64,000 nt of DNA, from NCBI RefSeq assembly GCF_011764545.1, contig NZ_AP022870.1, positions 5,998,001 through 6,062,000 of the forward strand. The letters are read 5' to 3'. The DNA is from Phytohabitans flavus. GTDB lineage: Bacteria; Actinomycetota; Actinomycetes; Mycobacteriales; Micromonosporaceae. The notes under the pieces are model-generated. The model saw nothing but the letters and a program-made list of their open reading frames with translations, did no database searches and was not told the origin of the DNA. A program made the translations under genes and the position numbers. Position 1 is the stretch's first letter, and each line of letters opens with the position of its first letter. Positions 32,977 through 50,039 of this stretch are shown here, one piece after another.

Positions 32977-34194
32977 TCAGGCGAGCGTGAGCGTCAAGGT
33001 GGCGAGGTACACACCCGGCTGGGTGGACGCCGGGATCGACAGCGCGAGGGCGGCACCGCACTCGAACACTCCGGTGCTGCTCGACGCCGCGGCCGAACAG
33101 AGGGTGCGGGCGCTGCCGAGATCGGCGCCCTCACCCGCGGCGACCTCGCCCGGGCCGCGTGCCCTGCCCGCCGTCGGGTCCCAGCTGAGGCTGGCGGCCG
33201 GGATCGAGGCCGTCCCCAGTTGGGTGGTGAAGTCCGGAAGCTGGCCGGTCAGGGCCCAACCCGCGCTGGAGCCGCGCAGGTCGGTCACCTCGGCCTGCGG
33301 CAGGTCGCCGCTGGCGGTACCGCCGACGGTGCCACCCGCCAACAGCACTGCCGTGCTCGCGAGCGCCAGGGTGAAGGGGCCTGGCGCGATCTCTGCGATG
33401 ATCTCCTGCTGGACCGAGCCACCCGGTGACTCGCCCGCGATCGTGTACGGCTGCGGGGCCGACGTGGAGCTCTGGAAGGCGCTCGAATCGGTCGGTACGA
33501 ACGTCGCGGTGATCGAGTAGGTCCCGATCGGGAGCGACGTCGTGGTCAGCGTGGCGGTAGCCTCCGCACCGGTGACCGGCGCGGAGCCGATGGTGACAGT
33601 CTCCCGCCGAAACTCCACCGTGCCCGTCGCCGCGTCTGGCTCGACGTCGGCGGTGAGGGTCACCTCGGTCCCCGGGTCGACCGGGCTGGCCGGGGTGATC
33701 GCGAGGCTCGTCGTGGTCGCCACCGCGGTCTCGTTCTTAAGCGCCCAGTTGCCGCCGGTGACGGTCACCGGGGTGATGAACCTGTCCGGGTGCCGCCCCA
33801 GGTTCAGGTGGTAGCACTCCAGCACTACCCACCACTCGCCGTCGGTGGGAGGGGTGCCGCCCAGCGCGTCGGCGAACGACCGGTTCGGCGCCGCCAGCAC
33901 GGGAGCGGTGTCGTAGCCGCCGGCGTCCAGCGACCGCGCGAGGTTCTGAAACGCGTCGCTGCCGGCAGGCCCGATCCTGAGCTGCGCGTTGACGCCGAAC
34001 CCTGACGGGCACGGTGCGGACGTCGTGCCGCTGGTGAACATCGGCCGGTCCGCCACGCTGCCGCCGCTCTGCGACAGCGTGATGGTGCCGAGCGGGGCGG
34101 CCTGGGCCGGCGACGCGACGGCCACGAGACCGCCGGCGGCCACGGTCACCGCTGCCAGCAGCGCGGCCGCACGGGCGGACCAACGCGCGCTCAT
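32977..34194 (-). CDS. WxL-domain secreted protein with Ig-like repeat (WxL-B)
   Basis: 405 residues. Signal peptide (AAALLAAVTVAAGGLVAVASPAQA). Residues about 33-155 are a domain shared with the products at 35885, 39752 and 50323 (LGTITLSQ, CPSGFGVNAQLRIGPAG, GGYDTAPVLAAPNRSFADALG, ECYHLNLGRHPDRFITPVTV). Then one bacterial Ig-like domain (SPVDPGTEVTLTADV). The C-terminal third is WxL-like: DLRGSSAGWALTGQL and final VYLATLTLTLA. WxL domains bind peptidoglycan non-covalently. ATG at 34194 follows GGGGAG. Confidence 0.82.
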   Translation of the reverse strand: MSARWSARAAALLAAVTVAAGGLVAVASPAQAAPLGTITLSQSGGSVADRPMFTSGTTSAPCPSGFGVNAQLRIGPAGSDAFQNLARSLDAGGYDTAPVLAAPNRSFADALGGTPPTDGEWWVVLECYHLNLGRHPDRFITPVTVTGGNWALKNETAVATTTSLAITPASPVDPGTEVTLTADVEPDAATGTVEFRRETVTIGSAPVTGAEATATLTTTSLPIGTYSITATFVPTDSSAFQSSTSAPQPYTIAGESPGGSVQQEIIAEIAPGPFTLALASTAVLLAGGTVGGTASGDLPQAEVTDLRGSSAGWALTGQLPDFTTQLGTASIPAASLSWDPTAGRARGPGEVAAGEGADLGSARTLCSAAASSSTGVFECGAALALSIPASTQPGVYLATLTLTLA

Positions 34195-34221
34195 GAATCA
34201 CTCCCCTTTTGAGGATGCAGC

Positions 34222-34249
34222 CGGCCGGGCTCCACTACCCGGCCGGCAA
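34222..34249 (-). terminator. Hairpin between WxL-interacting protein gene and WxL-B gene
   Basis: Perfect 10-bp arms (GCCGGCCGGG and complement) with an 8-nt loop, just before the WxL-B ribosome site. Terminator or attenuator. Confidence 0.5.
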
Positions 34250-34358
34250 CCAGACTTCCTACCGGCTGTGACCCCGCAGGCAGGCCAATCTCTCCGCCGG
34301 ACATGCTGGAGTTAAACATTCGGTACACGGCAGACGGCTGTGCTTTGACCGGCATGGA

Positions 34359-35773
34359 TCACCGGGCGTTCGCGCCGTTCCGTCGCCGGCCGAGGACCCG
34401 CAGGCCGGCACCGCCACCGACGAGTGCCGCGCCGACGGCTACGAATGCGCCGATGGCGAGGCCGGTACGGGGCAGATCGTCGCCACCGCCGCCATTCCCG
34501 TCGGTCGGGCTCGGCGACGGGCTGGGCGACTCGCTCGGTGAGACGGTCGGCGAGACCGTGGGGGTGGGCGAGACCGTGGGGCTGGTGGTCGCCGGTGCGA
34601 TCGACACCGCGATGTCCACGCCCGAAGTGGGTTCGAGGCCCGCGGGTGCGCCCATCGACGTGGCCGCCGGCGCCCCGAACAGGACGAGTGCCACCGCGAC
34701 CAGAAGCACGCCTCGGGCCGTCGACCCGGCCTCCACCGTCACCGCTTCGCCGCTGCCGTCGAAGTCGGGCAGTGCCGGCTGCCGGCGGGAACGCCACCGC
34801 CGGAAGAGCCAGAACAGGAGCAGCGCGACGATGAGCAGCAGCACCACGACGATGAGCCACGGTACCGCCCACATCGAGCGGGACTGGGTCAGCGAAAGCG
34901 TGGTGTTGTCGATCTGCGGGTTGACCGTGACCTGAGCCTTCAGCCAGCCAGCCGGGAAGACACCCTCGACCTTCCTGCTGATCCGGATCTCGGAGTCGGG
35001 CAGCAGCTCCGGAATGTCGATTACCTCGCTGTTGCCGAGCCGGATGCCGAACGGCCCTCGGACCTCGATCCGCGCCTTGCCGGAGAAGCGCACGTTGCCC
35101 GTGTTCGCGACCTGGTAGGTGACGGTCATGTCGCCGCCGCCGAACGGGATCAACGGGTTGTCGTACTGCGTGTCGATCTTAGTGATCTCCGCGGCCGGCA
35201 CAGAGGGCCCGTCCACGCGGAGGTAGACGCGGGCCGCGACGCGGCGCTCGACGTTCACCTGCTGGCCCTGCTCGTTCGTGGCGCTGCCGGTGGCCGAGGC
35301 GATCAGGCCCCGATGTGGTCGCCCGGCTCGGCGTTCGCGGGAATCTTCACCTTGAACGGGATGTCCACCCGCTTGCCCACCGGAACCGTGTAGTCCTTGC
35401 GGGGCAGCGTGATCCACGCGCCCACGTCCTTCGGCTGCTCACTCGCGGGCAGCAGCGCGAACCCACCGTCCGGGGCGTTGAACGCGTCCGTCGCGTACAC
35501 ACTCACCTTCAACGGCTCCGTGCCGAGGTTGCTCACCCCGACCCAGTCAGACACCTCCTCACCCGGCTTCAGCCCGTACTCGAACCGGCTGCGCACGGTT
35601 GGGCCCTTCGGGCTCGACGGGACGACGCTCCACTTGAAGTCGTCCCCGGGTGCCTTGACCGGGGCGGCGCCAGCGGGGGCAGAGGGAAACGCCGCGAAGA
35701 GCACGGCCAGCAGTGCGAGCAGAAGCCCGGCGCGCGTGGCGGGCCGGGGTCGGTCGGTTCGGTCGGGTTTCAT
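34359..35773 (-). CDS. WxL-interacting protein (DUF916-type) with LPxTG-like end, frameshifted
   Basis: About 471 residues after restoring one C at 35308-35311. Signal peptide (GLLLALLAVLFAAFPSAPAGA); DUF916 peptidoglycan-binding domain (WSVVPSSPKGPTVRSRFEYG, DWVGVSNLGTEPLKVSVYATDAF, VDIPFKVKIPANAEPGDHIGG); a second Ig-like half (PLIPFGGGDMTVTYQVANTGN); a membrane helix (VPWLIVVVLLLIVALLLFWLF); then a Ser/Pro/Thr-rich linker and a sorting signal LPRTG, hydrophobic stretch and RRR tail. It should partner the WxL proteins encoded on both sides. Confidence 0.85.
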
Positions 35774-35884
35774 GGCTCGGGCTCCTCGGTGCATCCGGAA
35801 ACAGGCATGCGGCGGAGGTGTCGCAGGCTATCGCCCACGACACCTCCGCCTATGTCAACCCGTGGCTGGGCTTGACCGCGAGGA

Positions 35885-37099
35885 TCAGGCCAGCGTCAGG
35901 GTCAGGGTGGCGGCGTACGCACCCGGGTTGGCGGTGTCCGGCACGGACAGCGTCAGACCACCAGCGCAGTCGAACACACCAGCGCTGCTCGCCGTAACGG
36001 CCGAGCAGAGGGTGCGAGCGTCGCCGAGGTCAGCGCCGGCACCCGCGTTGACCGCACCGGAGCCGCTGACCTTGGTCGCGCTCGGCGCCCAGGTCAGGTT
36101 GGCGTTCGGGATCGCGGTCGTCGCCGGGGTGGTGTTGAAGTCCTCCAGCTGGCCGGTGAGGTCCCAGCCCGCGTTGCTACCGCGCAGGTCGGTGACCGTG
36201 GCCTTCTGCAGGTTGCCGGTCGCGGTGCCACCGACGACGCCACCCTCGAGCAGGGCGGTGTCACCGGCAACCGTGAGGGAGAAGGCGCCGGGGATGACGT
36301 CCGCGACGATTTCCTGCTCCGCCGCCGGGCCCTCACCACTGAGCTCGACCGTGACGGTCTTCGCGGTGGAGGTGGAGGGCTTGAACAGCGCCGGGTTGCC
36401 CGGCGTGAACGCGGCCGTGATCGAGTGGGTCCCGACCGGCAGCGAGGTGGTGGTCAGCGTCGCGACACCGGCGTTGACCGGCGCGGTGCCGATCACGGTG
36501 CCGGCGGCGCCCCGCTTGAACTGCACGGTGCCCGCGGCGGTCGCCGGGGCCACCGTCGCGGTCAGGGTGACCTCCTCACCCGACTCGACCGTGGCCGGCG
36601 AAACGGCGAGGTCGGTGGTGGTGTCCTCGACAACCGGGCCGGTGTCGACGCGCCAGTTGGTGCCCTCGACGACGATCGGCAGCTGGAACTCATCGACGTG
36701 CCGGCCAGCGGTCAGGCTGAAGCACTCGATGATGATCAGGTACGAACCCGGCGTGACCGTCGTAACGCCCAGCGCCTGGGCCAGCGACCGGTTCGGCACG
36801 ATCGACACCGGAGCCTGGTCGTACCCGCCACCGCCCAGCGGGCGGCCCAGGTTCTGGTACGGACCACCGACCGGGCCAACCCGCAGACCAGCGTTCTCAC
36901 CGAACGTGGCCGGGCACGGGTTCGACGAGGTCGCCGACGTGAACATCGGGCTGGCGTCGTTCGAGCCGCTCGTCGGGGCGACCGTGATGCTGCCCAGCGA
37001 CGCCGCCTGCGCGGGCGACGCGACAGCCACCAGAACACCTGCCGACATCACGGCCGCACCAAGCAGCGCGCCCGCGCGAGCGAACATGCGCTTGCTCAT
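35885..37099 (-). CDS. WxL-domain secreted protein with Ig-like repeat (WxL-A)
   Basis: 404 residues, full-length paralogue of the product at 32977. Signal peptide ending ASPAQA; shared N-terminal domain (LGSITVAPTSGSNDASPMFTS, CPATFGENAGLRVGPVGGPYQN, GGYDQAPVSIVPNRSLAQALG, ECFSLTAGRHVDEFQLPIVV); one Ig-like domain (ATVESGEEVTLTATV); WxL-like C-terminal part with DLRGSNAGWDLTGQLEDF and final AYAATLTLTLA. Ribosome site GGAAG precedes ATG 37099. Followed by the WxL-interacting protein gene. Confidence 0.83.
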   Translation of the reverse strand: MSKRMFARAGALLGAAVMSAGVLVAVASPAQAASLGSITVAPTSGSNDASPMFTSATSSNPCPATFGENAGLRVGPVGGPYQNLGRPLGGGGYDQAPVSIVPNRSLAQALGVTTVTPGSYLIIIECFSLTAGRHVDEFQLPIVVEGTNWRVDTGPVVEDTTTDLAVSPATVESGEEVTLTATVAPATAAGTVQFKRGAAGTVIGTAPVNAGVATLTTTSLPVGTHSITAAFTPGNPALFKPSTSTAKTVTVELSGEGPAAEQEIVADVIPGAFSLTVAGDTALLEGGVVGGTATGNLQKATVTDLRGSNAGWDLTGQLEDFNTTPATTAIPNANLTWAPSATKVSGSGAVNAGAGADLGDARTLCSAVTASSAGVFDCAGGLTLSVPDTANPGAYAATLTLTLA

Positions 37100-37862: not shown

Positions 37863-38723
37863 TCAGCCGAAACGGCCGTTGACGTAGTCGGAGGTACGAG
37901 GGTCCTGCGGATGGTCGAACATCGCCGACGTCGCCCCGTGCTCCACGATCACCCCAGGCGTCCCCTGCGAGGCGAGGAAGAACGCGCATAGGTGCGAGAC
38001 CCGGGCGGCCTGCTGCATGTTGTGCGTGACGATGACGATGGTCACCTCGTGGACCAGCTCCGCGATGGTCTCCTCGATACGCCGCGTGGACGTGGGGTCG
38101 AGGGCTGAGCATGGCTCGTCCATGAGCAGCACCCGCGGGCGTACGGCGAGCGAGCGGGCGATGCAGAGTCGCTGCTGCTGCCCACCGGAGAGTGCCCCGC
38201 CCGGCTGGCGCAGCCGGTCGCGGACCTCTTTCCAGAGGCCCGCCTTCGTCAGCGTCTCCTCCACCAGGTCGTCCCGGTCGCTCCGGGAGACCCTGAGTCC
38301 GGTGAGCTTCAGCCCGGCCACGACGTTGTCGTAGATGGACATCGCCGGAAACGGGTTGGGCTTCTGAAACACCATGCCTACCTGGCGGCGGGCGTCGGTG
38401 ATGCGTCGCTCGGCGGAGTACAGGTCACGCCCGTCCAGCAACACCTCGCCGGCCAGCGACGCGCTCGGCACGAGCTCGTGCATCCGGTTGAGGATCCGCA
38501 GGAACGTCGACTTGCCACACCCCGACGGGCCGATCAGCGCGGTCACCTTGCCAGCCGGCATGGTCAGCGACACCCGGTCGAGCACCTTGTGGTCGCCGAA
38601 CCAGGCGGAAATCGACCGCGCGTCCAGGCTCGCCAGCCCGTCCGCGTTCGGCCGGGGTACGGGCGCGGTCGCGGCGACCGGCGGACCGAGGTCGATCACG
38701 GTCGAGTCGTCGAGCTTGGCCAC
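37863..38723 (-). CDS. pstB: Phosphate ABC transporter ATP-binding protein
   Basis: 286 residues. Walker A IGPSGCGKSTFLRILNRMHE is the characteristic PstB form, with MVFQKPNPFPAMSIYDNVVAG, signature LSGGQQQRLCIARSLA and Walker B VLLMDEPCSALDPTST. An unusual 30-residue N-terminal extension precedes the domain. GTG start with AAAGGA upstream. In this locus pstB is separated from pstC/pstA/pstS by genes for surface proteins and a sortase-like protein. Confidence 0.95.
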   Translation of the reverse strand: MAKLDDSTVIDLGPPVAATAPVPRPNADGLASLDARSISAWFGDHKVLDRVSLTMPAGKVTALIGPSGCGKSTFLRILNRMHELVPSASLAGEVLLDGRDLYSAERRITDARRQVGMVFQKPNPFPAMSIYDNVVAGLKLTGLRVSRSDRDDLVEETLTKAGLWKEVRDRLRQPGGALSGGQQQRLCIARSLAVRPRVLLMDEPCSALDPTSTRRIEETIAELVHEVTIVIVTHNMQQAARVSHLCAFFLASQGTPGVIVEHGATSAMFDHPQDPRTSDYVNGRFG

Positions 38724-38747: not shown

Positions 38748-39755
38748 CTAGAGGAGGTTGGGCAGGAGACGCGCGGCCTGGTCGGCGATGGCCAGCCCCA
38801 AGGCGAGCAGGACGGGTGCACCGACGACCCAAGCCTGCCAACCGCCCCAGCGGGCGCGCAGGTAAGTGATCGCCAGAGTGGCGAGGAGCAACGCCTGAGC
38901 CCAGAGCATAAGCGGCGTCCACGCGCCCTGGTCAGTGGCCAACGCGGCCTCCGCGGGCGGGAGCGACGCGGCGTTGAACTTGCGGGCCGGCGTCGGCTGG
39001 ACCGTGCTGACCAGGTCGGCGTCGACCCGCACGAGATCCTGCGGGACGAACGGGGATCCGTCCGCCGTGACTAGCGTTATCCGCCCCTTGCCCTCGGTCA
39101 GCGGCGGCGGCGCGGGCTCGCCGGGGTAGCGCAGCCCGCGTACCCGGTACTCGTGCGTGCCCTGCCCGGTCGTCGCCGTGATCCGGTCACCGGGCAGCAG
39201 CAGGTCCAGGTCGCGGAACGGACCTCCGTACGCCGCCCGCCGGCCCATCACGACGGCGGTGCCGGCCTGTCCGGGCAGCACACTGTCCCGGCGGTGCCCC
39301 GGACCCTTCTGGAGCACGTCGCCGCGGGTTCCTTCGAAGACGACGGTCCGCAGGCCGACCGCCGGGATCTCGAGCACGGCGACCGCCGAGCCCGGCTCGA
39401 CGAGGCGCTCGGTGCCTTCCTCGGCGCCGTCCGTGAACTCCAGCCGGGTCTGCCCCACCGGCGCGGTACCCCGGGCGAGTTCGGCGCGGAAGTCGGCAAA
39501 GGCCGTCTGCTGGTTGCGCTGATACTGAAGCTGCGAAATCACCGTCAGGTGGACGACGAAGCCCAGCGTCACCGCGGCGAGAATGCTCAACGCGATGCCC
39601 GGTACCTGGAGCGCCAGCACGATCACCGGGGAATCAGGCCGTCGTGGTGGTGGCGTCGCGGCCGGCGGCGCGGGCGCGGAGGGCGGCGGCGGGACCGGAG
39701 CCGCCGGCTCGCGAGGCGTACTCGCGGCCGGCGGCTCGTGCATCGTGATGGTCAT
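38748..39755 (-). CDS. Sortase-fold membrane protein lacking catalytic His and Cys
   Basis: 335 residues: Pro-rich cytosolic start, membrane helix (VPGIALSILAAVTLGFVVHL), then a class E/F-like sortase domain (VLEIPAVGLRTVVFEGT, GPGHRRDSVLPGQAGTAVVMG, GGPFRDLDLLLPGDRITA, YRVRGLRYPG, ITLVTADGSPF, DLVRVDADL). In active sortases the first core reads GHR and the second TLxTC; here they read VVMGRRAAYGG and LVTADG, so His is Arg and Cys is Ala. The Arg near LVRV remains. Two more membrane helices end the protein. Start overlaps the LAxTG protein stop (ATGA). Probably a structural or binding sortase homologue. Confidence 0.83.
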   Translation of the reverse strand: MTITMHEPPAASTPREPAAPVPPPPSAPAPPAATPPPRRPDSPVIVLALQVPGIALSILAAVTLGFVVHLTVISQLQYQRNQQTAFADFRAELARGTAPVGQTRLEFTDGAEEGTERLVEPGSAVAVLEIPAVGLRTVVFEGTRGDVLQKGPGHRRDSVLPGQAGTAVVMGRRAAYGGPFRDLDLLLPGDRITATTGQGTHEYRVRGLRYPGEPAPPPLTEGKGRITLVTADGSPFVPQDLVRVDADLVSTVQPTPARKFNAASLPPAEAALATDQGAWTPLMLWAQALLLATLAITYLRARWGGWQAWVVGAPVLLALGLAIADQAARLLPNLL

Positions 39756-41449
39756 TCCTTGTCGTCCGGCCAGTTCACCGGCTGGGGCTCCGGGCGCCGG
39801 CGGCGGGTGAAGAGCATCGTGCCCGCGCCAGCCCCGATCAGGGCGAGGCCAGACGCGCCGATCGCGATCAGCGGGGCGCCGGTGCTGGCCAGGTTGCCAC
39901 CACCGTTGCCGTCGCCATCTCCGTCACCGTCCCCGTCACCATCACCATCTCCGTCGCCGTCGCCATCCCCGTCACCATCTCCGTCATCGGTGGCGGTAAT
40001 CACGTACGTCCGCGCGGCGGAGGTCGAGGGTTGGAACGCGGTGGCGTCGGTGGGCGTGAAGACGGCGGTCAGCTGGTGTGTGCCGACTGCGAGCGCGCTC
40101 GCGACGACGGTAGCCGCGCCGTTGTTCACAGTCACGTCCGCGCCGATCTGGGTGGAGCCGTCCATGAAGCGCATGATGCCGGCGGCGGTGCTCGGGGTCA
40201 CCGTGGCGCTCAGCGCCACGGGCGTGCCCTGCACCTGCGGCGACCCCGGGTTCGTCACCAGAGCCGTCTGCGTCGCGACGGCTCCGGCCGGTGCCTCACC
40301 GATCCGGTATGCGCTCTTCACTCCGACGGACGTGCCGACCGTGTCCTCTTCCCCCTCCGCCGGGGTGAACCCCGCCTCGAATGTGTACAGACCGTCCGCG
40401 AGACCCGAGACCGTCGCCTCCGCCGTCCCGTCGGTCAGGGGAACGGTGTCGATGACCGTCGTGGCGGAGCCGGCGGTGTCGGGCTTGTACCGGAACTCGA
40501 TCGTGCCGCCCGTCGGCTTCTCTACCGTACTCGTGAAGATCACCGAGGCGGACAAAGCGACTTCGGACCCGGACGGGGCCTGGTTCTCCGGCGTGACGGT
40601 CAGCGCGGTCGTCGTCGGCCGCTCGTCTCCCGGGAACAGGACGATCTCGACGTCCGCGGAGGTCGATGCCAGAAATGCGTTTGAGTCGGTGGGGGTGAAG
40701 GCGGCACTGACCAGATAGGTCGTGCTGCTGGCGCCGATCACGGGCAGATGGGCCTCGGCGTTCGGCAGGGTCGCCTTCCCATCCGCGCCGACCGCCACCG
40801 GGTCGCCGATGTTCTCCACCACCGTGGTGCCCGCGCGCTTCCGGCGGAACTGGACGGGACCCGCGGCCGACGGCGGGTCGATTGTGGCGGTGAGGGTGAT
40901 CGGCGTACCTTCCGGCACCGCGCCGGACGGCTCGGCGGTCACGGTCGTGGTGGTCGGTTCGGCCGTGCCGCAGCTGGCGGCCGTCGTCCACGTCGTGCCG
41001 TCACAGATCAGGATCGGGAGCTGGAACTCGTCCACGTGCCGGCCAGCGGTCAGGCTGAAGCACTCCATGATGATCAAGTAGGTGGTCTCGGTCGGCGGCG
41101 CACCGAGAGCCTGGCTCAGTGACCGGTTCGGCGCGATCGTCACCGGCGCCTGGTCGTACCCGCCGCCACCGAGCGGACGGCCCAGGTTCTGGTACGGACC
41201 GCCCACCGGGCCGACCCGCAGACCCGCGTTCTCTCCGAACGTGGCCGGGCACGCCCGCTCCGACGTCGCCGAGGCGAACATCGGCGAGGCATCGATGGTG
41301 CCGTTGGTTGGTGTGATCGTGATGGTGCCGAGCGAGGCCGCCTGCGCCGGAGTGGCGAACGCGAGGACGACGCCGGTCGCCAACACACCGCTGGACAGAA
41401 GGGTCGCCAATGCCAGCGCGAACCAGCTGCGACGTCGTTGCCTACTCAT
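39752..41449 (-). CDS. Ig-like repeat surface protein with LASTG sorting signal
   Basis: 565 residues. Signal peptide (LALATLLSSGVLATGVVLAFATPAQA); the N-terminal domain shared with the three other paralogues (CPATFGENAGLRVGPVGGPYQN, ECFSLTAGRHVDEFQLPILI); three Ig-like Big_3_5 domains; a run of alternating Asp-Gly (about residues 495-525); and the C-terminal sorting signal LASTG, hydrophobic segment and RRRRPEP. LAxTG is the class E sortase motif. The neighbouring sortase-like protein cannot cleave by the usual mechanism, so another sortase must anchor it. No WxL end, unlike its paralogues. Confidence 0.83.
   Translation of the reverse strand: MSRQRRRSWFALALATLLSSGVLATGVVLAFATPAQAASLGTITITPTNGTIDASPMFASATSERACPATFGENAGLRVGPVGGPYQNLGRPLGGGGYDQAPVTIAPNRSLSQALGAPPTETTYLIIMECFSLTAGRHVDEFQLPILICDGTTWTTAASCGTAEPTTTTVTAEPSGAVPEGTPITLTATIDPPSAAGPVQFRRKRAGTTVVENIGDPVAVGADGKATLPNAEAHLPVIGASSTTYLVSAAFTPTDSNAFLASTSADVEIVLFPGDERPTTTALTVTPENQAPSGSEVALSASVIFTSTVEKPTGGTIEFRYKPDTAGSATTVIDTVPLTDGTAEATVSGLADGLYTFEAGFTPAEGEEDTVGTSVGVKSAYRIGEAPAGAVATQTALVTNPGSPQVQGTPVALSATVTPSTAAGIMRFMDGSTQIGADVTVNNGAATVVASALAVGTHQLTAVFTPTDATAFQPSTSAARTYVITATDDGDGDGDGDGDGDGDGDGDGDGDGDGNGGGNLASTGAPLIAIGASGLALIGAGAGTMLFTRRRRPEPQPVNWPDDKE
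39904..39992 (-). repeat. Asp-Gly coding hexanucleotide repeat
   Basis: About 14 imperfect GACGGN/GATGGN units encode an Asp-Gly run just before the LASTG anchor. Likely an acidic, flexible wall-spanning linker, possibly cation-binding; prone to length variation. Confidence 0.7.
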
Positions 41450-41522: not shown

Positions 41523-42730
41523 TCAGCTGTTGAACCGGAGGTCGGTGTAGCCGCAGTTCGCCTCCAGAGGGCTGGAGAACGTGCCGCGGTAGCCGAAACC
41601 GAACAGCTCGATGACACGCCGCGGCTGGCCGTTGACGGTCACCGTGTCGCTGCACACCGCCGAGTTGATGCCGACGAACGTGCTGGCGATGGTCGCGTTG
41701 CCCAGGTCAGCCGTGGGAACGACGTTGTAAACGTCCCGGCGGAACGGAGCCGGGAAGTTGACGTTCAGCACGCCGTTGACGACCGGCTCCGTGTTGGGAA
41801 CCGAGGTGGTGCTCATGGCAACCGGGTGGGCGAAGCCACGCCGGTCCGCCACGACCACCGGCGGCAGGGCGGCCTCGATGACCGCGTGGTTGGTCTGCGC
41901 GACGTACTGACCGGCCGAGAACGGAACAACGTGGGTCAGGTTCCCGTTCAGGACGGTGCCGTCGTGCTCCTGCACCCGGGGGTGCACCGGGATGGCGGGG
42001 GTGGTGATGTTGTTGTCCTGGTCCACCGCCATGCAGGGGTAGTCACCAGCGTTGATCTCGTTCTCGGTGATAGCCATACGAGCCGGCTGGATCCAGAAGT
42101 CCCAGGTGCCCGAGCCGGTCTGGATCATCCGCGGCACGACGGCGTTGCCGGCGACCCGGGTGTCGAAGCACTTGTACACGCGCTGGATCTGCGCGAACGA
42201 CCACGCGAACGGCAGGTCACCCTGCTCGTGCACGGCCAGCGTCACCGCGTCCACACCCGCGGGATGTAGGTGTAGGCGCCGGTGGTCGACGGGGTGCTGC
42301 CGCCGCCGTAGCTCGACGAGCGAGCGAAGTCGACGCAGCCCTGAACGTTCACGCCGGTAACGGCCGGGTACTGGCCGGGCGTGCCCGGGCCGGCACCGTC
42401 AAGGTCCTCGCCCTCGGACGCGCGCAGCGCCTGGCGGCCCGCACCGGAGCCGTTCGGCCGCGAGAACGAGCAGCCGGTCGCCTTGGTCTTGATGGTGGTG
42501 GTCCCGCCCGCCGGCGGACGGGCGTCCCACGAAGCGACGATATCGCCGGCACCGAGCGCCTCGCCGAGGCCGTTGCCGAGGTCCTGCGTGGTGTCCGAGC
42601 CGACACCGGCCAGCTGGCGGAACTCGGTGGCCGGGTCCGGGTCCGCGACGGCCGGGGTGGCCGCCACGGCAAGCGCGACGACGGCGCTGACGCCGATCAC
42701 CGCCGCTCTGCCGATGGTCTTGACCTTCAT
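41523..42730 (-). CDS. Secreted PstS-like protein of unknown function, frameshifted
   Basis: About 402 residues after restoring one base at 42256-42258 (CGGGGTGTGGAC reading PRGVDAVTLAV). Signal peptide (AAVIGVSAVVALAVAATPAVA), then FRQLAGVGSDTTQDLGNGLGEAL, which resembles the substrate-binding-fold opening of PstS proteins (GAGST/SDTT loop). No membrane anchor or lipobox. ATG at 42730 has AAGGGAG upstream. A single PHO-like unit lies at 42919-42929. Could be a soluble phosphate- or oxyanion-binding protein; the specific ligand is inference. Confidence 0.68.
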
Positions 42731-42918
42731 ATGTGCTCCCTTTCTGCGGGACTCAGAGGCCTGGCGCGTAGGTTGAGCCGTAACCCAGACCTCCGGGCAA
42801 GACACTCAAGACTCGCCTCCATGCCAGACGAGCCGAAACGATCCTCGCGTCGCTGGACTGGCCACCGAAACCGATGCCAGACAAACGTTTCGCGCATGTG
42901 TCTCTCGCCAACACTTAG

Positions 42919-42963: not shown

Positions 42964-45577
42964 TCATTTTCTACCCGATCGGATGGCGAATCGCTGCATG
43001 ATCGGACCAGCGATGCCACCGACCAGTCCCATAATCAACGCGGCAATCAGCAGGAACCGGATGATCCCCAATGGACTACCCAGCGTCGATTGCGATTGCG
43101 CCGCAGGGGTCGCCGATGGTGGGGCACCGGGTGCCGGGGTACCGGGGACGGGGTGGCACCTTCGCTGGGCACGCCGCTGGGCGTCGGCGTCTCACTGGGC
43201 CCGGATCCGTTGTCCGCCGGTGGTGACGTTGGGTTCACCCAGTTTTCCAGCTGGCTCGCCGCGATCATCGTCTGCTCCCGGAACGAGGCCGGCAGCGGGA
43301 CGTAGCCCTGCGGCAACTGCCCCCACGCCTCACCCGGATCCTGGCCCGAGCCGGCGGCGTACCGCAGCAGCTTGGCGTACTCCCGCCGGGCGTCGGCCGC
43401 CTCACTGGTGTCGGCGATCGCGTAGGTCACGCTCGTCAGCGGGTACGCCCCCGGCGTCGCCCACGCCTTCACCGGGTCCACCACCTTCACGCCGTCCACC
43501 TGGCTCGCCACAGCGGTCGCGGCAGCGGCGCTCATCCCTTCCCTGGTAGCGGTCCGGCAGTCATCCGGCGGGAGAAGCGTGCCGGCCGCGTCCCGCTTGG
43601 GCTTGCAGAGCTGAGCGGTGAAAAGCCCGTACTTGGCCGCCGACGCGGAATCAGTGACCGACATGATGAACCGAGACCCAGCAGACTTTCGCGGGAGGTC
43701 GGAGAAGCGGCAGCACTCCGTGAGGTCCTGGGCCGGGGGAAGGAGGGGGAGCAGCGGCACTCCCTTTCCCTTCGTCTGGGCGCGGAGCGTCTGCAGCGCG
43801 GCCTCGCTCATCGAACCCATGTAGGGCCACTGGTCGAGCGCGCAAAGCAGAAAGTCGACATCGACCCCCTGGATCGGTACGAAGCGCCTCTCCTTGTAAC
43901 AGTCGGGATCAGCCTTCGGGAAGGTCTCCGGCGCGCTTGCGAACAGATCCTTGTACGCCGGGTTGACCCACATGCCGTTCTCGTCAGGTTTCTTGCCCTG
44001 GATCCACGCCTTCGCTTCCGGGTCGCTCAGAATCCACTGCCAAACCTCGCGCGCGGCCGTGGAGCTTCCGACAGCGACCATCAGACCGGCCAGAGTCGCC
44101 GTCTCCGACCTCGGCCAATCTTTAAATACCGGGTTGAGGGTCAGGAACTCCGGGTCATAGCGGATGCTGTTCGGGTTACCCGCGGTTTGATCGGGGTTCT
44201 CGCCAGGGATGCCGTCGCGCGGATAGCTCTGGGTGAGCAGCTTGGCCAGTAGCCGCGGGGTCAGCTTCAGGTCGGTCAACGCCAGCCCGTGCAGTCGCTG
44301 GATCTCCTCCGGTGGCGGCTGACCACTGACGTCTAGCGGGTTGATGATGTTGTAGTCGATGTTGATCGCGACCACGGTACTGGCAAGCGTCACAGGGGCG
44401 TGTACGACCGGCGGGTTACTGGAGACCACCGGATCGCCGCTGTAGACCAAGCCGGGTGCGCCCTCGAGCGGGCTGGTGACCTGCGTCGCCGCCTCGAAGT
44501 CACTGATGGCGGAGTAGCCGAAGATCGGGCCGTTGCCGGCGCACAGCACGGGCTGCCAGGACGTCACGGCCTCGGCCACCGCCTCGGTGCCGGCGGTGCG
44601 CCGCTCTGCCTTGTCGAGTGAGCAGCCGCCCTCGACAGGTGCGAAGTCCAGCGGCACGACGATCCGGTGCTTCCACAGCGCCGGCGTGAACGGCGAGCCG
44701 TGCACGGCTTTCTCAGTGGCATCGACGTCATCGCCGTTGTACGGGTTGTGGAATCCGCGCGGGACGATCACCAGGGAACAGGGGCGCGGCCCCAGCACAC
44801 CATCCGGTGCCCGGTACTGCGCCCCGCAGCCCAGGTTCGGTGAGAGCCGATCGTTCTGCACTTCGAAGGTCGCCCGGCCGGTACCGTCGGCGGCCGTCAA
44901 CGCGTACGGGTACTCGTTGGTGGAGTCCTTGGAGAAGTACCTGGTCATGACGTCGTAGTCAAGCTCGTCACGAGTGCCGAGCGAGGGGTCAGGAACCTTG
45001 CCGAACGGCTCGGCGGCGCTACCGTCCCGGGAGCTCTCGCCGGTCACCGACTTGAACGGCACCATCCTGGCGTCTTCCCGCACCCCGGTCTTCGTGGGCG
45101 TCTCGTCCGGGTCCCGGACCGGGTAGACGACGCCGTCGCCCTTGAAGATCGATCGCCGGCCGGCCTCCGCGCTCGACTCCGTACCACCCGCGCCGATGAG
45201 CGTCGGTTTATCGAGATCCATACCGAACGCGCAGGTCTCCCGGAAGTCCATCGCCGCCGGATTGCCCCAGCACTGCATCAACTGGAGGTAGTCCGTGCCC
45301 AGCGTGGAACGCCGGGTGTGGGCTTGGCGCCCGTCCAGGTCACGATGAGTGCTTCGTTCGTGAGGTTTCTGGTCTTGGAGACGGTGACGGCGAGGCCGCT
45401 GAAGTCTTCGAAGCCCTGCTTCGTGCCGCGCACGGTCACTGCCGAGCCGCCGTCGCCGCCCCCGCCGCCACCTCCTTCGGCCGCGCCCTGCGCCGGGTCG
45501 GCGGCCGGTTCGATGACGAAGAGCAGGCCGGCGGCGATCATGGCCACCAGGAACCCGGCGATACTCCGCCGGTTCAT
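42964..45577 (-). CDS. Large membrane-anchored PstS-like protein, twice frameshifted
   Basis: About 871 residues after restoring one base near 45306-45309 and one at 43136-43139. Signal peptide or anchor (GFLVAMIAAGLLFVIEPAAD), Gly-rich linker, a beta-rich first half, then a PBP-like half with VHAPVTLASTVVAINIDYN, LKLTPRLLAKLLTQSYP, LTSVTYAIADTSE and GQLPQGYVPLPASFREQ, which follow the order seen in PstS. Restoring the second base yields a Pro/Ser/Thr linker and a final membrane helix IIRFLLIAALIMGLVGGIAG ending at TGA 42964. Starts inside the end of pstS (ATGA). Confidence 0.72.
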
Positions 45578-47247
45578 ACCCGACCCCCGTCGTCGCGACG
45601 GCCCCGCAGCGCGTTGGCGAGCAGCGGCGGTCCGAGGATCAGCCCGAGGAAGACCAACCCGGCGATCACCATGATCGTGTGCCGGAGGCGCCAGCCACCC
45701 TCGCCCTCGAGGGAGACCGGCTCGGCCACGACCTGCTCGCCGTCGCCCGCGCCGCCGCCGTCGTTGCCGGCGGCCAAGCCGGTGTCCGGATCGATCGGCC
45801 CGGAGCTGGTCGGCGGACCGGTCGTGGCCGAGCCGTTTGGTCCGTTCCCGTCGCCGTCACCGTTGTTGTTGCCGTTGTTGTTGCCACCGGTCGCGCACCG
45901 GGCCGACGTCTTGACCGGGGTCTGCTCGGTACCGGCGGTCCCGGCCGGGTTCTGCCTCGACCCCTTCCGGTCGCACTCGGACGGCCGGGGGGCGGTTTGG
46001 AGCAGCACGTTCCGACCGCCGCGGAAGGTCGGGTTGTTGCAGCCGGCGACGTTGATGTTTCGGTCCTCCGCGCCGGGGATCCGGTGCACCTGGCTTATCC
46101 CGGCGTCCACGAGGTTTTTCGGCAGCGGCGAGTAGCCCAGGACCTCGGCCTGCTGCTGCCCCTCGCAGAGGAAGTAGTAGGCGAACAGGCCCAGCGTGTA
46201 TCCCTTGTCGACGGTCATGCTTGTCACGTCGAGTCGGTCGACCGGGATGATCATGTAGGAGTACGACGACAGCGGGTACGTCCGCGGGTCGTTGAACCGG
46301 TACACGCCGTCGAGGATCTGCGTCAGGTACGCCGGGCTGCTCTTGTTTTCGTTGATCTGGGCCTTGGTGAGCGCGACCGCCACGTTGGACGCGGTCGGCT
46401 CGGTGTAGTAACCGGCCTCGTTCAGCACCTTGGCCACGGGGAAGCGCGCGTTCTTGGCGTACGAGTACTCGACGTAGGTGATCGAGCCCTCGGCGTTGCT
46501 CTGCGAGACGTAGCCGGACACACCGTTCGAGCCGGTCTGCCCGATGAAGCCTTCATTGGACCGGTACGGGTACTGCGAGGTGAGGCCGCACGGCGACGGC
46601 TTGTTGAACTTCCGGCAGTAGGCGTCCCAGATCGACCCGTGCTCCTTGCTCATCCAGAGCGTGAACTGCGCGCTGGTGCCGGAGCCGTCCTGGCGGACCA
46701 CCGGCACGACCGACCGCGCGGGCAAGTTGAGCCCCGGGTTGTCGGCCACGATCGCTGGGTCGTTCCAGCGCTTGATCGCGCCCGTGAAGATCTTCGCGAT
46801 AACCTCGCCGGAAAGGCGCAGGTTGGTCACCCGGCGCCCGCCGATCCGCAGGTTGTACATGAACGCGGTACCGCCGGCCACGATCGGCATGTACGCGTAC
46901 GTGCGCGTGGGAGGCGGGTCGGTGCCGGCGAACCTGTCCGTCATCCCGTACGGGATTTCGGACACGCCGAAGTCGACGGTGCCCTGCTTGTAGCGGTTAC
47001 GGCCGTCCGTCGAGCCGCTCGCGTTGTAGTTGACCGTGATGCTGCGCGCGACGTTACGTCGCCAGTTCTCGATCGCGTTGGAGCTCCAGGTCGAACCCGC
47101 GCCGTTGATCGGCACCTTTCGCGGCGCTGGCGCGGGTGCGGCCGCCCCCGGCGCGGGTGGCCCGGCAAGAAAAACCAACATCAGTGCCGCGGTAGCGGCG
47201 ACGACGCGGGCCAGGCGGTGGGCCACGTCGGTCCACTTTCTGGTCAT
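45574..47247 (-). CDS. pstS: Phosphate-binding protein PstS-like with C-terminal membrane anchor
   Basis: 557 residues. Signal peptide (AAATAALMLVFLAGPPAPGA), then a PstS-type binding domain: INGAGSTWSSNAIENWRR, YNASGSTDGRNRY, DFGVSEIPYGM, LRLSGEVIAKIFTGAIKRWND, VVRQDGSGTSAQFTLWM and the late LGLFAYYFLCEGQ. After about residue 430 come an Asn/Gly/Asp-rich linker and a single membrane helix (TIMVIAGLVFLGLILGPPLL). Most PstS proteins are lipoproteins; this one uses a C-terminal helix. Overlaps pstA (ATGA). Confidence 0.9.
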   Translation of the reverse strand: MTRKWTDVAHRLARVVAATAALMLVFLAGPPAPGAAAPAPAPRKVPINGAGSTWSSNAIENWRRNVARSITVNYNASGSTDGRNRYKQGTVDFGVSEIPYGMTDRFAGTDPPPTRTYAYMPIVAGGTAFMYNLRIGGRRVTNLRLSGEVIAKIFTGAIKRWNDPAIVADNPGLNLPARSVVPVVRQDGSGTSAQFTLWMSKEHGSIWDAYCRKFNKPSPCGLTSQYPYRSNEGFIGQTGSNGVSGYVSQSNAEGSITYVEYSYAKNARFPVAKVLNEAGYYTEPTASNVAVALTKAQINENKSSPAYLTQILDGVYRFNDPRTYPLSSYSYMIIPVDRLDVTSMTVDKGYTLGLFAYYFLCEGQQQAEVLGYSPLPKNLVDAGISQVHRIPGAEDRNINVAGCNNPTFRGGRNVLLQTAPRPSECDRKGSRQNPAGTAGTEQTPVKTSARCATGGNNNGNNNGDGDGNGPNGSATTGPPTSSGPIDPDTGLAAGNDGGGAGDGEQVVAEPVSLEGEGGWRLRHTIMVIAGLVFLGLILGPPLLANALRGRRDDGGRV

Positions 47248-48530
47248 ATGCTCAGTTCCCTACTGTCGGTCGATCCGGTGCTGTAGGTCTGCGCAGCCGA
47301 CGCCCGGCGGGCGTGTTCGCGGGCCGCGTACCGGCGTGCGTCGCGGTAGGACGCGCGCACCCGGCGGCGTCGCTGCCCGCGGGTGAGCTGTCCCGGGATC
47401 CGGCCGCCGATGAGGCGGGCCAGGACGAAAAGGAAGAGGACGAGCATCATCAGCACGGCCGCGGCGCCGAAGCCACGCGAGATCATGGTGTCGGACGGCG
47501 TGCGTACGAGCTGAAACGTCAGCAATGGCAGCGACATCTGCGGGTTGGCGGTCGGGTTGATGTTGGTGACCGCGGTGGCGCCGACGGTGAGGAGCACCGG
47601 TGATGTCTCGCCGATGCCACGCGCGGTGCCGAGGATGACCGCCGTCGTGATCCCGGACCGGGCGGTCGGCAGCACGACGTGCCAGATCGTGCGCCACTGG
47701 GATGCGCCGAGGGCGAGCGACGCTTCGCGCAGCGAGCCCGGCACCAGCCGGATCACCACGTCGGCGGCGCGGATGATGATCGGCAGCATCATCACGCTAA
47801 GCGCGATCGAGCCGGCCACACCCGACAGCGGCACGCCGAGGGTGAGAATGACCGTGCCGTACACGAAAAGACCGGCCACAATGGACGGCAGCGCGGTCAT
47901 CGCCTCCACGATCGTCCGTACAAACCGGCTGTACGGACCGGGCAGCTCGCTGAGGAAGACCGCGCCGACGATGCCCAGCGGCATCGTGATCGCCAGGGCC
48001 ATACCGATCTGTTCCAGCGTGCCGATGATCCCGTGCCGCACACCGCCGATGTCGAGCGACTGCAGCGGGCCGGCCGCGCGCATGTCCTCGTAGTAGAAGT
48101 TGAGGTGGAACAGCGCGTCCCGGCCCCGGATGAAGGTGAAGGACACCACCACGACCAAGGCGAGCAGCATCAGGAAGGCGAGGCTGTAGATCATCACAGC
48201 CGCCAGCCGGTCGCGCACCGCCGGGCCGGACTCGTCGATCGACACCAGCAGTGCGTAGATGCCGAGAAACAACACGAAGGAAACGACGACGAAGCCGAGC
48301 AACCCGTCGAACGGCGCGAGCTGGGTGAAGACCACCGCGGCGAGGCTGATCGCGGCCGCTCCCGCGCCGAGGAGCGCGAGTACGTCGCTGCGGCGGGTGG
48401 TGCTCGTCGTACGCCGTACCTCCGGCGCGTCGGGCTCTGGTGTATTGCGGGGCAGCGTGGTCTCCGCGGGCGCCGAGTGCCGCCCGGACGCCGGATCGGC
48501 GGTAACCACGGCCTGTACCTGGGTCGTCAT
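47244..48530 (-). CDS. pstA: Phosphate ABC transporter permease PstA
   Basis: 428 residues. A long N-terminal extension with extra membrane helices precedes the PstA core: GIIGTLEQIGMALAITMPLGIVGAVFLSE, MTALPSIVAGLFVYG, LREASLALGASQWRTIWHVVLP (EAA motif), ARGIGETSPVLLTVG. A basic cytosolic tail of about 55 residues follows. Together with PstC it forms the membrane channel for phosphate. ATG at 48530; pstC ends 2 nt before. Confidence 0.93.
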   Translation of the reverse strand: MTTQVQAVVTADPASGRHSAPAETTLPRNTPEPDAPEVRRTTSTTRRSDVLALLGAGAAAISLAAVVFTQLAPFDGLLGFVVVSFVLFLGIYALLVSIDESGPAVRDRLAAVMIYSLAFLMLLALVVVVSFTFIRGRDALFHLNFYYEDMRAAGPLQSLDIGGVRHGIIGTLEQIGMALAITMPLGIVGAVFLSELPGPYSRFVRTIVEAMTALPSIVAGLFVYGTVILTLGVPLSGVAGSIALSVMMLPIIIRAADVVIRLVPGSLREASLALGASQWRTIWHVVLPTARSGITTAVILGTARGIGETSPVLLTVGATAVTNINPTANPQMSLPLLTFQLVRTPSDTMISRGFGAAAVLMMLVLFLFVLARLIGGRIPGQLTRGQRRRRVRASYRDARRYAAREHARRASAAQTYSTGSTDSRELSI

Positions 48531-48532
48531 CA

Positions 48533-49590
48533 CTACACCTCGCTCGCCGCACCCGAGCGGCTGCGGTTGATGATGATTCCGGCACCGAAATTGACGATCA
48601 GCGTGACGCCGAAGAGCACGAGGCCGGCGGCCATCAGCGCGGCGAAGCCGACGCCGAGGTCCTCCGCGTAGCGCAACGCGATAAGTGCCGAGATCGAGCC
48701 GCCGCCGTTCTGCAGGATGTGCGGCTGGATCACGAAGACCACGGAGATGACGAGGTAGACGCCGATGGTCTCGCCGAGTGCCCGGCCGAGACCGAGCATC
48801 GTGCCGCCGATCATGCCGCCCCGGCCGAATGGCAGTACGACCGAGCGGATCATCCCCCACTTGGTGGCGCCCAGCGCGTACGCGCCCTCGCGCTCACCGA
48901 GCGGTGCCTGCGAGAAGACCTCGCGCATGATGGACGCGATGATCGGCGTCACCATCATCGCCACGACCAAGCCGGCGACGAACGTCGACGCGGTCAGCGA
49001 CGTCGGCGTCGCCAGTGGGTCGCGCGGATCGTAGTCGTCCACTCGGAAGAGCGGGATCCAGCCGAAGTAGGTCGCCAGCCAGCGGGGCAGGCCCTCGCCC
49101 TGCTCGCCGACCACGAGGAGCTTCGGCTGCAAGAGGAACAGCCCCAGATGCCGTAGACCACGCTCGGCACCGCGGCCATCAGGTCGACCAGGTTGACGAG
49201 CACGGGCTTGATCCGGGCCGGCGCGTACTCCGAGATGAAGAGCGACGCCCCGAACGCCAGCGGTACGGCGACGCTGATTGCCACCATGCCGATCAGCAGG
49301 GTACCGACGAGGACGCCCGCGATACCGAAGTCGCCACCCTGCGGGTCCCACGCCTGTGTCGTGAGGAAGCCGAGTCCGGCCTCCCGCCAGGCCGGTAGTG
49401 CGTCCCTGGTCAGGAAGATCCCGACCAGCAGCATGATCAGGAGTACGACCGTGCCACCGGCGCGAGCGACGCCGCGGAAGAGCTGGTCCGACGGCGGTCG
49501 GCGCTCTCGGATCCGGCGCGCGCTGTCCTGTGGTCCCTCCGGTGTGGACGGTACGTGCGTGGACGGTGGATCAGCCGACGTTACGGTCAT
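48533..49590 (-). CDS. pstC: Phosphate ABC transporter permease PstC, frameshifted
   Basis: About 352 residues after restoring one C at 49142-49145 (SVVYGIWGLFLLQPKLL). PstC features: VVLLIMLLVGIFLTRDALPAW, FGIAGVLVGTLLIGMVAISVAVP, ISEYAPARIKPVLVNLVDLMAAVPSVVYG, EGAYALGATKWGMIRSVVLP (EAA motif), LGRALGETIGVYLV. ATG at 49590 overlaps the upstream hypothetical gene by TGATG. Confidence 0.92.
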
Positions 49591-50039
49591 CAGCCCGCGT
49601 TCCGAAGTTCGCGGTTGGGCCGTGTCGGTGACTCCTCGACGCCGGTCCGCCGCCGCCCTCGCCGGACAGTCCTGGTACCGGCGACGACCTCTGCCTTGGG
49701 AACGGCCTCCAGGAACCGCTCGAGGTTGTACGCACACTCCCTGGCCCGAAGGTAGGAGCGGCTCGAAACGGCCACCGGCTCACCGTCCAGCTCGATACGC
49801 CACGACCACTGGCCGGTCAGCTCGACCGTCGTCTCGACCGACTTGACCCGCTCGCTGTTGGCCTGGAGGTCCAGCACCGACTGGCGGCAGGAGCTGTAGG
49901 TCTCGTGGTATGTGGTGCCGCGCCCCAGCGGGCGGTTGTTCGGCGAGACCAGCATCCAGAGGATGCCGTCGGCCCCGTCACCGTCCTTCGACTCGGGCAT
50001 CGGCGCGGCCAGAAACACGAACCGTGAGTGCTGCACCAT
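49590..50039 (-). CDS. Small pst-linked protein of unknown function
   Basis: 149 residues from ATG 50039, which has GGAAGGG upstream. Contains SRFVFLAAPMPE, GTTYHETYSSCRQSVLDLQ and ELTGQWSWRIELDGEPVAVSSRSYLRARECAYNLERFLEAV; the latter half resembles the short DUF1508-like beta-hairpin repeats that carry a W-x-W-R pattern. The frame stays open to 50273 but that part overlaps a PHO-like site and looks non-coding. Translationally coupled to pstC (TGATG), so it is likely part of the phosphate-starvation response. Confidence 0.65.
   Translation of the reverse strand: MVQHSRFVFLAAPMPESKDGDGADGILWMLVSPNNRPLGRGTTYHETYSSCRQSVLDLQANSERVKSVETTVELTGQWSWRIELDGEPVAVSSRSYLRARECAYNLERFLEAVPKAEVVAGTRTVRRGRRRTGVEESPTRPNRELRNAG

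Follow-up and report, generated by a model that had tools for sequence, protein, structure and literature searches.

The window that we analyzed, a stretch of 64,000 nucleotides from Phytohabitans flavus, carries a cluster of minus-strand genes in which Pst-type phosphate importer components lie beside secreted and surface proteins and beside an intact, full-length open reading frame for a sortase-like protein, hereafter the pseudosortase. The genes follow one another in the order PstC, PstA, PstS, SURF, SBPx, an Ig/LASTG protein, the pseudosortase, PstB, and then WxL- and WxLIP-like proteins:

48536-49737, minus strand: PstC permease homologue with an apparent frameshift near 49141 (homology, including to locus L061 of the close relative Phytohabitans maris)
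47250-48530, minus strand: PstA permease homologue (homology, including to L061)
45574-47247, minus strand: PstS homologue (PBP_like_2) with a C-terminal hydrophobic segment (homology; L061 orthologue)
42967-45577, minus strand: SURF, a large surface protein whose C-terminal part is weakly PstS-like, with two apparent frameshifts (weak PstS match)
41526-42914, minus strand: SBPx, secreted, with two apparent frameshifts; its intact L061 orthologue has a PstS fold in the model (model, comparison)
39752-41449, minus strand: Ig-like (Big_3_5) surface protein with a C-terminal LASTG sorting signal (Pfam, sequence)
38748-39755, minus strand: pseudosortase, 335 amino acids (Pfam, NCBIfam, AF2 model; predicted topology)
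39471-39620, minus strand: pseudosortase helix 46-95, its first part the putative N-terminal membrane anchor (AF2 model; membrane assignment from sequence)
39240-39242, minus strand: codon of R172 at the catalytic His position, in VVMGRRAAYGG (alignment, tree)
39063-39065, minus strand: codon of A231 at the catalytic Cys position, in LVTADG (alignment, tree)
39033-39035, minus strand: codon of L241 at the catalytic Arg position (alignment, tree)
38766-38930, minus strand: pseudosortase helices 276-303 and 305-330, the putative C-terminal membrane hairpin (AF2 model; similar tail in the nearest active outgroup)
37863-38723, minus strand: PstB-type ABC ATPase, the next gene downstream of the pseudosortase (homology)
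35885-37099, minus strand: secreted protein with an Ig-like domain and a WxL match under the cut-off (Pfam)
34359-35794, minus strand: WxLIP-domain protein with a C-terminal LPRTG; an apparent frameshift near 35309 splits the gene (Pfam)

Homologues of PstC, PstA, PstB, and PstS occur together in one locus both in the window and in L061, where PstC (235.4 bits against an NCBIfam cut-off of 196.45) and PstA (207.9 against 193.45) scored over, and PstS (196.6 against 205) and PstB (333.6 against 343.2) just under, their cut-offs. In these components, and in the PstS fold of SBPx, the cluster resembles the E. coli-type PstSCAB importer (cryo-EM structure 9k3x), from which pseudosortase loci differ by the added pseudosortase, SURF, and SBPx and often by Ig/LASTG and WxL/WxLIP proteins. 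The L061 SBPx matched no NCBIfam family and matched Pfam only below the cut-off; its model (pLDDT of 81.4) adopts the PstS fold (4gd5; Z = 20.8, 2.9 Å over 234 residues), and because a profile comparison with PstS was too weak (probability of 3%), the fold comparison decided its assignment as PstS-like. The likeness of the C-terminal part of SURF to PstS was weak (22.5 bits with NCBIfam, and 25 bits). Four weak matches of SURF to p53 in a PDB sequence search (E of 0.03 to 0.25) were taken as low-complexity.

Compared to P. maris, the locus displays six apparent frameshifts (at 35309, 42263, about 42850, about 43130, about 45300, and 49141), which fall in the WxLIP, SBPx (two), SURF (two), and PstC genes. 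Given that the assembly has 89% completeness on a single contig, they look like assembly indel errors rather than biology. We also observed that WxL-like proteins (below the Pfam cut-off) and WxLIP-domain proteins (above it) lie beside this actinobacterial Pst locus, at 32977-37099 in the window and at L061:12184-14979; WxL systems have been described mainly from Firmicutes.

The pseudosortase was initially annotated as a sortase homologue without catalytic His and Cys, and its kinship with sortases was borne out at the level of both sequence and fold. Residues 128 to 230 match the Pfam Sortase family (PF04203) with 54.3 bits (E = 1.4e-14, cut-off of 26.6), while all listed NCBIfam subfamilies scored under their cut-offs, the best being the class E sortase (NF033747; 78.7 bits against 160). 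The AF2 model, built with 81 sequences, is confident (mean pLDDT of 89.6) and displays a long N-terminal helix (46-95), a sortase-type beta barrel (about 103-248), and two C-terminal helices. Structural searches with this model retrieved sortases exclusively among the matches listed (50 of 50 with Foldseek and 50 of 50 with VIA-align), including 4d70 (Z = 18.6, 2.9 Å over 154 residues) and the class E sortase SrtE1 of Streptomyces coelicolor (5cuw; Z = 17.0, 2.3 Å over 131 residues). The predicted layout is thus a Pro-rich N-terminal tail, one transmembrane helix (as sortases have), an extracytoplasmic sortase domain, and two C-terminal transmembrane helices that end in RLLPNLL. SrtE1 shares the barrel and the GPGH segment with the pseudosortase, but the latter differs from it in the two-helix tail, the linkage to Pst genes, and the score under the NF033747 cut-off. 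A search for relatives in a plasmid collection yielded two weak matches, one annotated as a class C sortase and one unannotated, which we set aside.

To place the catalytic columns, we aligned the family with three active class E sortases. The family alignment contained 97 rows, i.e., 80 scanned loci, 16 loci from genome searches, and the window protein; L038, L039, L042, and L048 were omitted, as they were taken to be from the same genomes as L062, L061, L076, and L118, and so was L047, which has an in-frame TGA (it is still counted among the 21 loci of the Pst linkage tally below). The scan that gave the 80 rows used a peptide pattern at positions 153-162, which leaves the catalytic columns untouched but inflates conservation at 155-157. 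In this alignment, the positions of His251, Cys320, and Arg329 of SrtE1 read R172, A231, and L241 in the pseudosortase. None of the 97 rows retained any of the three residues: the His column was R in 95 and K in 2, the Cys column A in 88 (G 4, S 3, T 1, V 1), and the Arg column V in 51 (I 13, L 13, T 10, A 7, and S, F, and P 1 each). In 18 rows from outside the pattern scan, position 172 was R in 15 and K in 3. Hence, Arg and Ala do stand at the His and Cys positions, as had been read from the window sequence, and orthologues at pst loci have lost these residues as well, but the late Arg that was thought to be retained is not the catalytic one: R243 lies two residues past the catalytic position, in a column that varies (R in 72 of 97; Y 10, Q 4, H 3, F 2, W 2, and four others).

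A catalytic residue elsewhere in the fold was not apparent either. The His of the GPGH segment, H154, is kept in 96 of 97 family rows, and because it is likewise present in all 25 active rows compared, we ruled it out as a replacement for the lost catalytic His. Cys was absent from the sortase-domain columns in 96 of the 97 rows. The protein is a sortase by fold and descent and not a catalytic sortase by the three defining residues that we tested. That transpeptidation nevertheless persists through a different nucleophile, or through residues supplied in trans, is very improbable: the fold is intact and T230, directly before the Cys site, is nearly constant in pseudosortases, but T230 is also common in active sortases (5 of 10 tailed rows and 14 of 15 others), and the domain has lost the catalytic Arg and, nearly always, any Cys.

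The apparent frameshifts in neighboring genes and the incomplete assembly could raise the suspicion that the gene itself is decaying or an artifact. We consider this scarcely credible, in agreement with the initial annotation, which judged decay unlikely: the gene is full length, all 97 rows, drawn from many genera, share the same three losses, and whole-gene dN/dS values (NG86, a simple method that gives rough values for such GC-rich genes) were 0.21, 0.24, 0.22, and 0.25 against four congeners. The shared losses and the low congener dN/dS together argue that the loss of the triad reflects neither chance nor decay. The pseudosortase is under purifying selection among these close relatives, although unevenly along its length, with 0.20-0.30 for residues 100-250, 0.10-0.15 for the C-terminal hairpin, and loose values of 0.42-0.75 for the Pro-rich N terminus. 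Against the more distant L063 and L069, the values were 0.41 and 0.44 for the whole gene and 0.45 and 0.46 for the domain, all below 1. One in-frame TGA was found in the second pseudosortase copy of a congener (G003:C1:2310107-2311060).

Relatives of the pseudosortase are widely but patchily distributed. Five of six genomes of its own genus contain a close match, and P. flavus itself has a second pseudosortase-pst locus (L045, G000:C1:6450688-6451626) whose protein is 51% identical; at 7.11 Mb of the same genome, PstS and PstB matches above their cut-offs lie within 4 kb of each other. A scan of 84,980 species genomes with one narrow pattern returned 373 relatives, of which we examined 80, with named taxa that we take to be exclusively Actinomycetota. 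When 396 genomes of the phylum were scanned with a profile, 201 had matches at E 1e-15, many of them covering only part of the query, and 30 loci were returned; among the 19 loci read for catalytic residues were full-length relatives that have the C-terminal hairpin and keep His, Cys, and Arg. These active tailed class E-like sortases have a similar tail with a mostly LLP-type end.

We then built a tree of 73 rows and 270 columns from which the catalytic columns and their neighbors were removed, rooted on 15 class E-like rows; it takes in 30 of the 80 scanned loci, excludes L142, and leaves class A-D and F sortases outside its rows. All 48 rows that lack His and Cys formed one clade (bootstrap of 100, SH-aLRT of 99; present in 100% of 200 bootstrap trees). 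Just outside this clade, in an unsettled branching order, sit ten active tailed sortases (L150-L152, L154, L155, L158, L161-L163, and L170), which all keep His, Cys, and Arg and are the nearest active relatives in the tree, in line with common descent with class E-type sortases. The earliest branch within the clade is L149 (support for this first position of 97/60), with the triad R-S-R, the only one of the 48 rows to have Arg at the catalytic position; L153 and L148, with R-S-Y, branch after it. As there is one clade and its earliest branch keeps Arg, the simplest reading would be a single loss of both His and Cys, followed later by the loss of Arg.

The linkage of the pseudosortase to pst genes, proposed for the window, was found throughout. 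Using thresholds of 150 bits for PstC, PstA, and PstS and 300 bits for PstB, we detected at least one Pst subunit at 80 of 80, 21 of 21, and 9 of 9 pseudosortase loci (three partly overlapping sets), versus 0 of 11 loci of active tailed sortases and 0 of 2 loci of other class E sortases. At three of the 11 active tailed loci (L176, L183, and L190), the flanking sequence is short on one or both sides, and near some active sortases ABC-ATPase matches reached up to 55 bits, below the threshold. No Pst gene was found at the loci of the ten active tailed sortases in the tree or at L190. The latter belongs to genome G423, which contains both an inactive copy with pst (L177) and an active copy without it (L190). 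Because the linkage and the catalytic loss each trace to one position in the tree, the perfect association amounts to one coincidence rather than many. As a separate observation, an ABC ATPase gene lies on the other strand 0.7-1.5 kb upstream in 7 of the 11 active tailed loci (L174, L175, L176, L179, L180, L182, and L183; 21-55 bits to PstB), and for this reason an ABC transporter neighbor may predate the Pst link.

Among the partners of the pseudosortase, SURF, PstB, and SBPx were the most constant, being found at 68, 67, and 66 of the 68 loci with full context, versus the LASTG protein, whose Ig/LASTG homologue occurred at 40; the surface partner thus varies. PstS (60), PstA (53), and PstC (41) followed, with counts that are lowered by the 10-kb limit on the flanks, along with WxL (45) and WxLIP (37). 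Downstream of the pseudosortase stop, the projected PstB start followed at a median distance of 24 bases, and it fell between -150 and 400 bases in 73 of 80 loci; in the other 7, the best PstB match was not directly downstream.

The initial annotation had suggested that the dead sortase fold could either bind sorting signals or act as a scaffold. In the window, the start codon of the pseudosortase and the stop codon of the LASTG gene lie in a 4-base overlap (ATGA, 39752-39755), and this overlap suggests that the two genes are translationally coupled. More widely, a loose motif filter, applied from -1.6 to +0.16 kb around the pseudosortase, picked out LxxTG-type tails at 51 of 80 loci, and reading of the tail sequences of upstream proteins added nine loci with MxxTG tails: MASTG in L080, L085, L101, L105, L109, and L135, MAATG in L111 and L137, and MPTTG in L074. 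Together with the retained sortase fold, these neighbors would fit a protein that binds the LASTG (MASTG, LPxTG) tail uncut and keeps its owner in the membrane near the importer or hands it to an active sortase. However, the upstream region was unreadable at 6 of the 80 loci (contig ends or N), and at 14 of the 74 readable ones no LxxTG or MxxTG protein was recognizable within the range tested.

The residues that would contact a sorting signal have changed as well. In docking models of SrtE1, Arg329 and Tyr229 hydrogen-bond the LAxT peptide and the beta6/beta7 loop forms a Leu pocket; strand beta3 of SrtE1 ends at His228 (PMC5148588). From this strand end, Tyr229 would map to column 155 of the pseudosortases. 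That column contained R in 88, L in 7, and E and K in 1 each of the 97 rows, where the scan pattern favored R and L; in the 21 rows of set A1, which were not chosen by pattern, it contained R in 15, L in 4, and E and K in 1 each. Active rows, in contrast, had Y or F there in all 10 tailed sortases, and Y in 14 of the 15 others. With the contact Arg absent from every family row, the putative Tyr site occupied by other residues (R in the window protein), and the motif of the Leu-pocket loop different from the SrtE1 type, binding of sorting signals is weakened, and we regard a holder of uncut tails as unlikely. The scaffold is the better half of the earlier suggestion, as a putative role.

Three Arg residues, R156, R172, and R209, are nearly invariant in the pseudosortase clade, whereas active rows lack them or have them rarely; in the family alignment, position 209 is R in 95 of 97 rows. 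One may imagine that R172, which is R or K throughout the family, together with R156, R209, and often R155, turns the former active-site groove into an anion site for phosphate, polyphosphate, or a phosphorylated wall polymer that feeds or senses the importer, and the neighboring genes do concern phosphate. Against this, the net charge of the domain did not differ between pseudosortases and active sortases (means of -1.7, -1.9, and -2.1), which also led us to reject a generally basic domain surface, and the counts for R155 and R156 in the 80 scanned loci are inflated by the scan pattern (outside the scan, R occurred in 7 of 18 and 13 of 18 rows, respectively). An anion site appears less probable still than a holder of uncut tails. 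Taken together, the near-constant Arg residues, the constant presence of PstB and of PstS-fold proteins, and the constraint on the hairpin point to binding of proteins or anions as its role within the importer. In a more specific and tentative version, the sortase fold would be a non-enzymatic, extracytoplasmic subunit of an ABC phosphate importer, and its dead, Arg-lined groove would deal either with phosphate or phosphopolymers or with the simultaneous docking of several phosphate-binding proteins.

A dead sortase might alternatively hold back an active class E sortase that recognizes the same surface proteins, as a brake or decoy. Candidate active sortases do coexist with it: elsewhere, the genome contains five other sortase-domain matches, and all sequences read keep His and Cys. 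Yet the signal-contacting residues are lost in the pseudosortase, and a constant Pst linkage is not expected of a general sortase brake, which renders such a role highly doubtful.

Overall, we favor the reading that a class E-type sortase with a C-terminal two-helix tail was recruited into a Pst importer operon in a single event, lost its triad, and was kept as a non-enzymatic, membrane-anchored subunit, to which we assign a probability of roughly 0.5. The more general notion of the initial annotation, a conserved non-catalytic sortase fold in a pst-linked surface system, is supported by the fold, the family-wide loss of the triad, and the Pst linkage, and the pseudosortase probably now works as a non-enzymatic part of the phosphate importer. 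In our leading model, for which the chance is about one in two, it serves as a docking subunit through which several phosphate-binding proteins are held at PstC/PstA. The recruited sortase would have given up His and Cys before Arg; its membrane hairpin would sit with PstC and PstA, and its extracytoplasmic domain would serve as a docking platform for PstS, SBPx, and SURF near the permease and, in most loci, would also hold a wall protein close to it. The LASTG protein itself would be covalently anchored by another, active sortase of class E, whose gene lies elsewhere in the genome. Operon membership is not equivalent to membership of a complex, and the pseudosortase could also play a role in assembly or regulation.

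Sortases are known as wall-anchoring enzymes. Searches of the open full-text literature brought up no account of a naturally inactive sortase at an importer locus, and by that measure this widespread and conserved branch of catalytically dead sortases tied to phosphate import would represent an undescribed natural pseudoenzyme of the superfamily. Since the window protein passes the Pfam sortase cut-off, automatic annotation may well label such proteins as sortases. The tree provides a stepwise series from active tailed sortases, via a lineage without His and Cys but with Arg, to a clade without all three, and the conversion of an enzyme into a part of a transporter is therefore open to experiment. 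If the more specific version outlined above is true, actinobacteria would gain a multi-receptor, wall-spanning phosphate scavenger.
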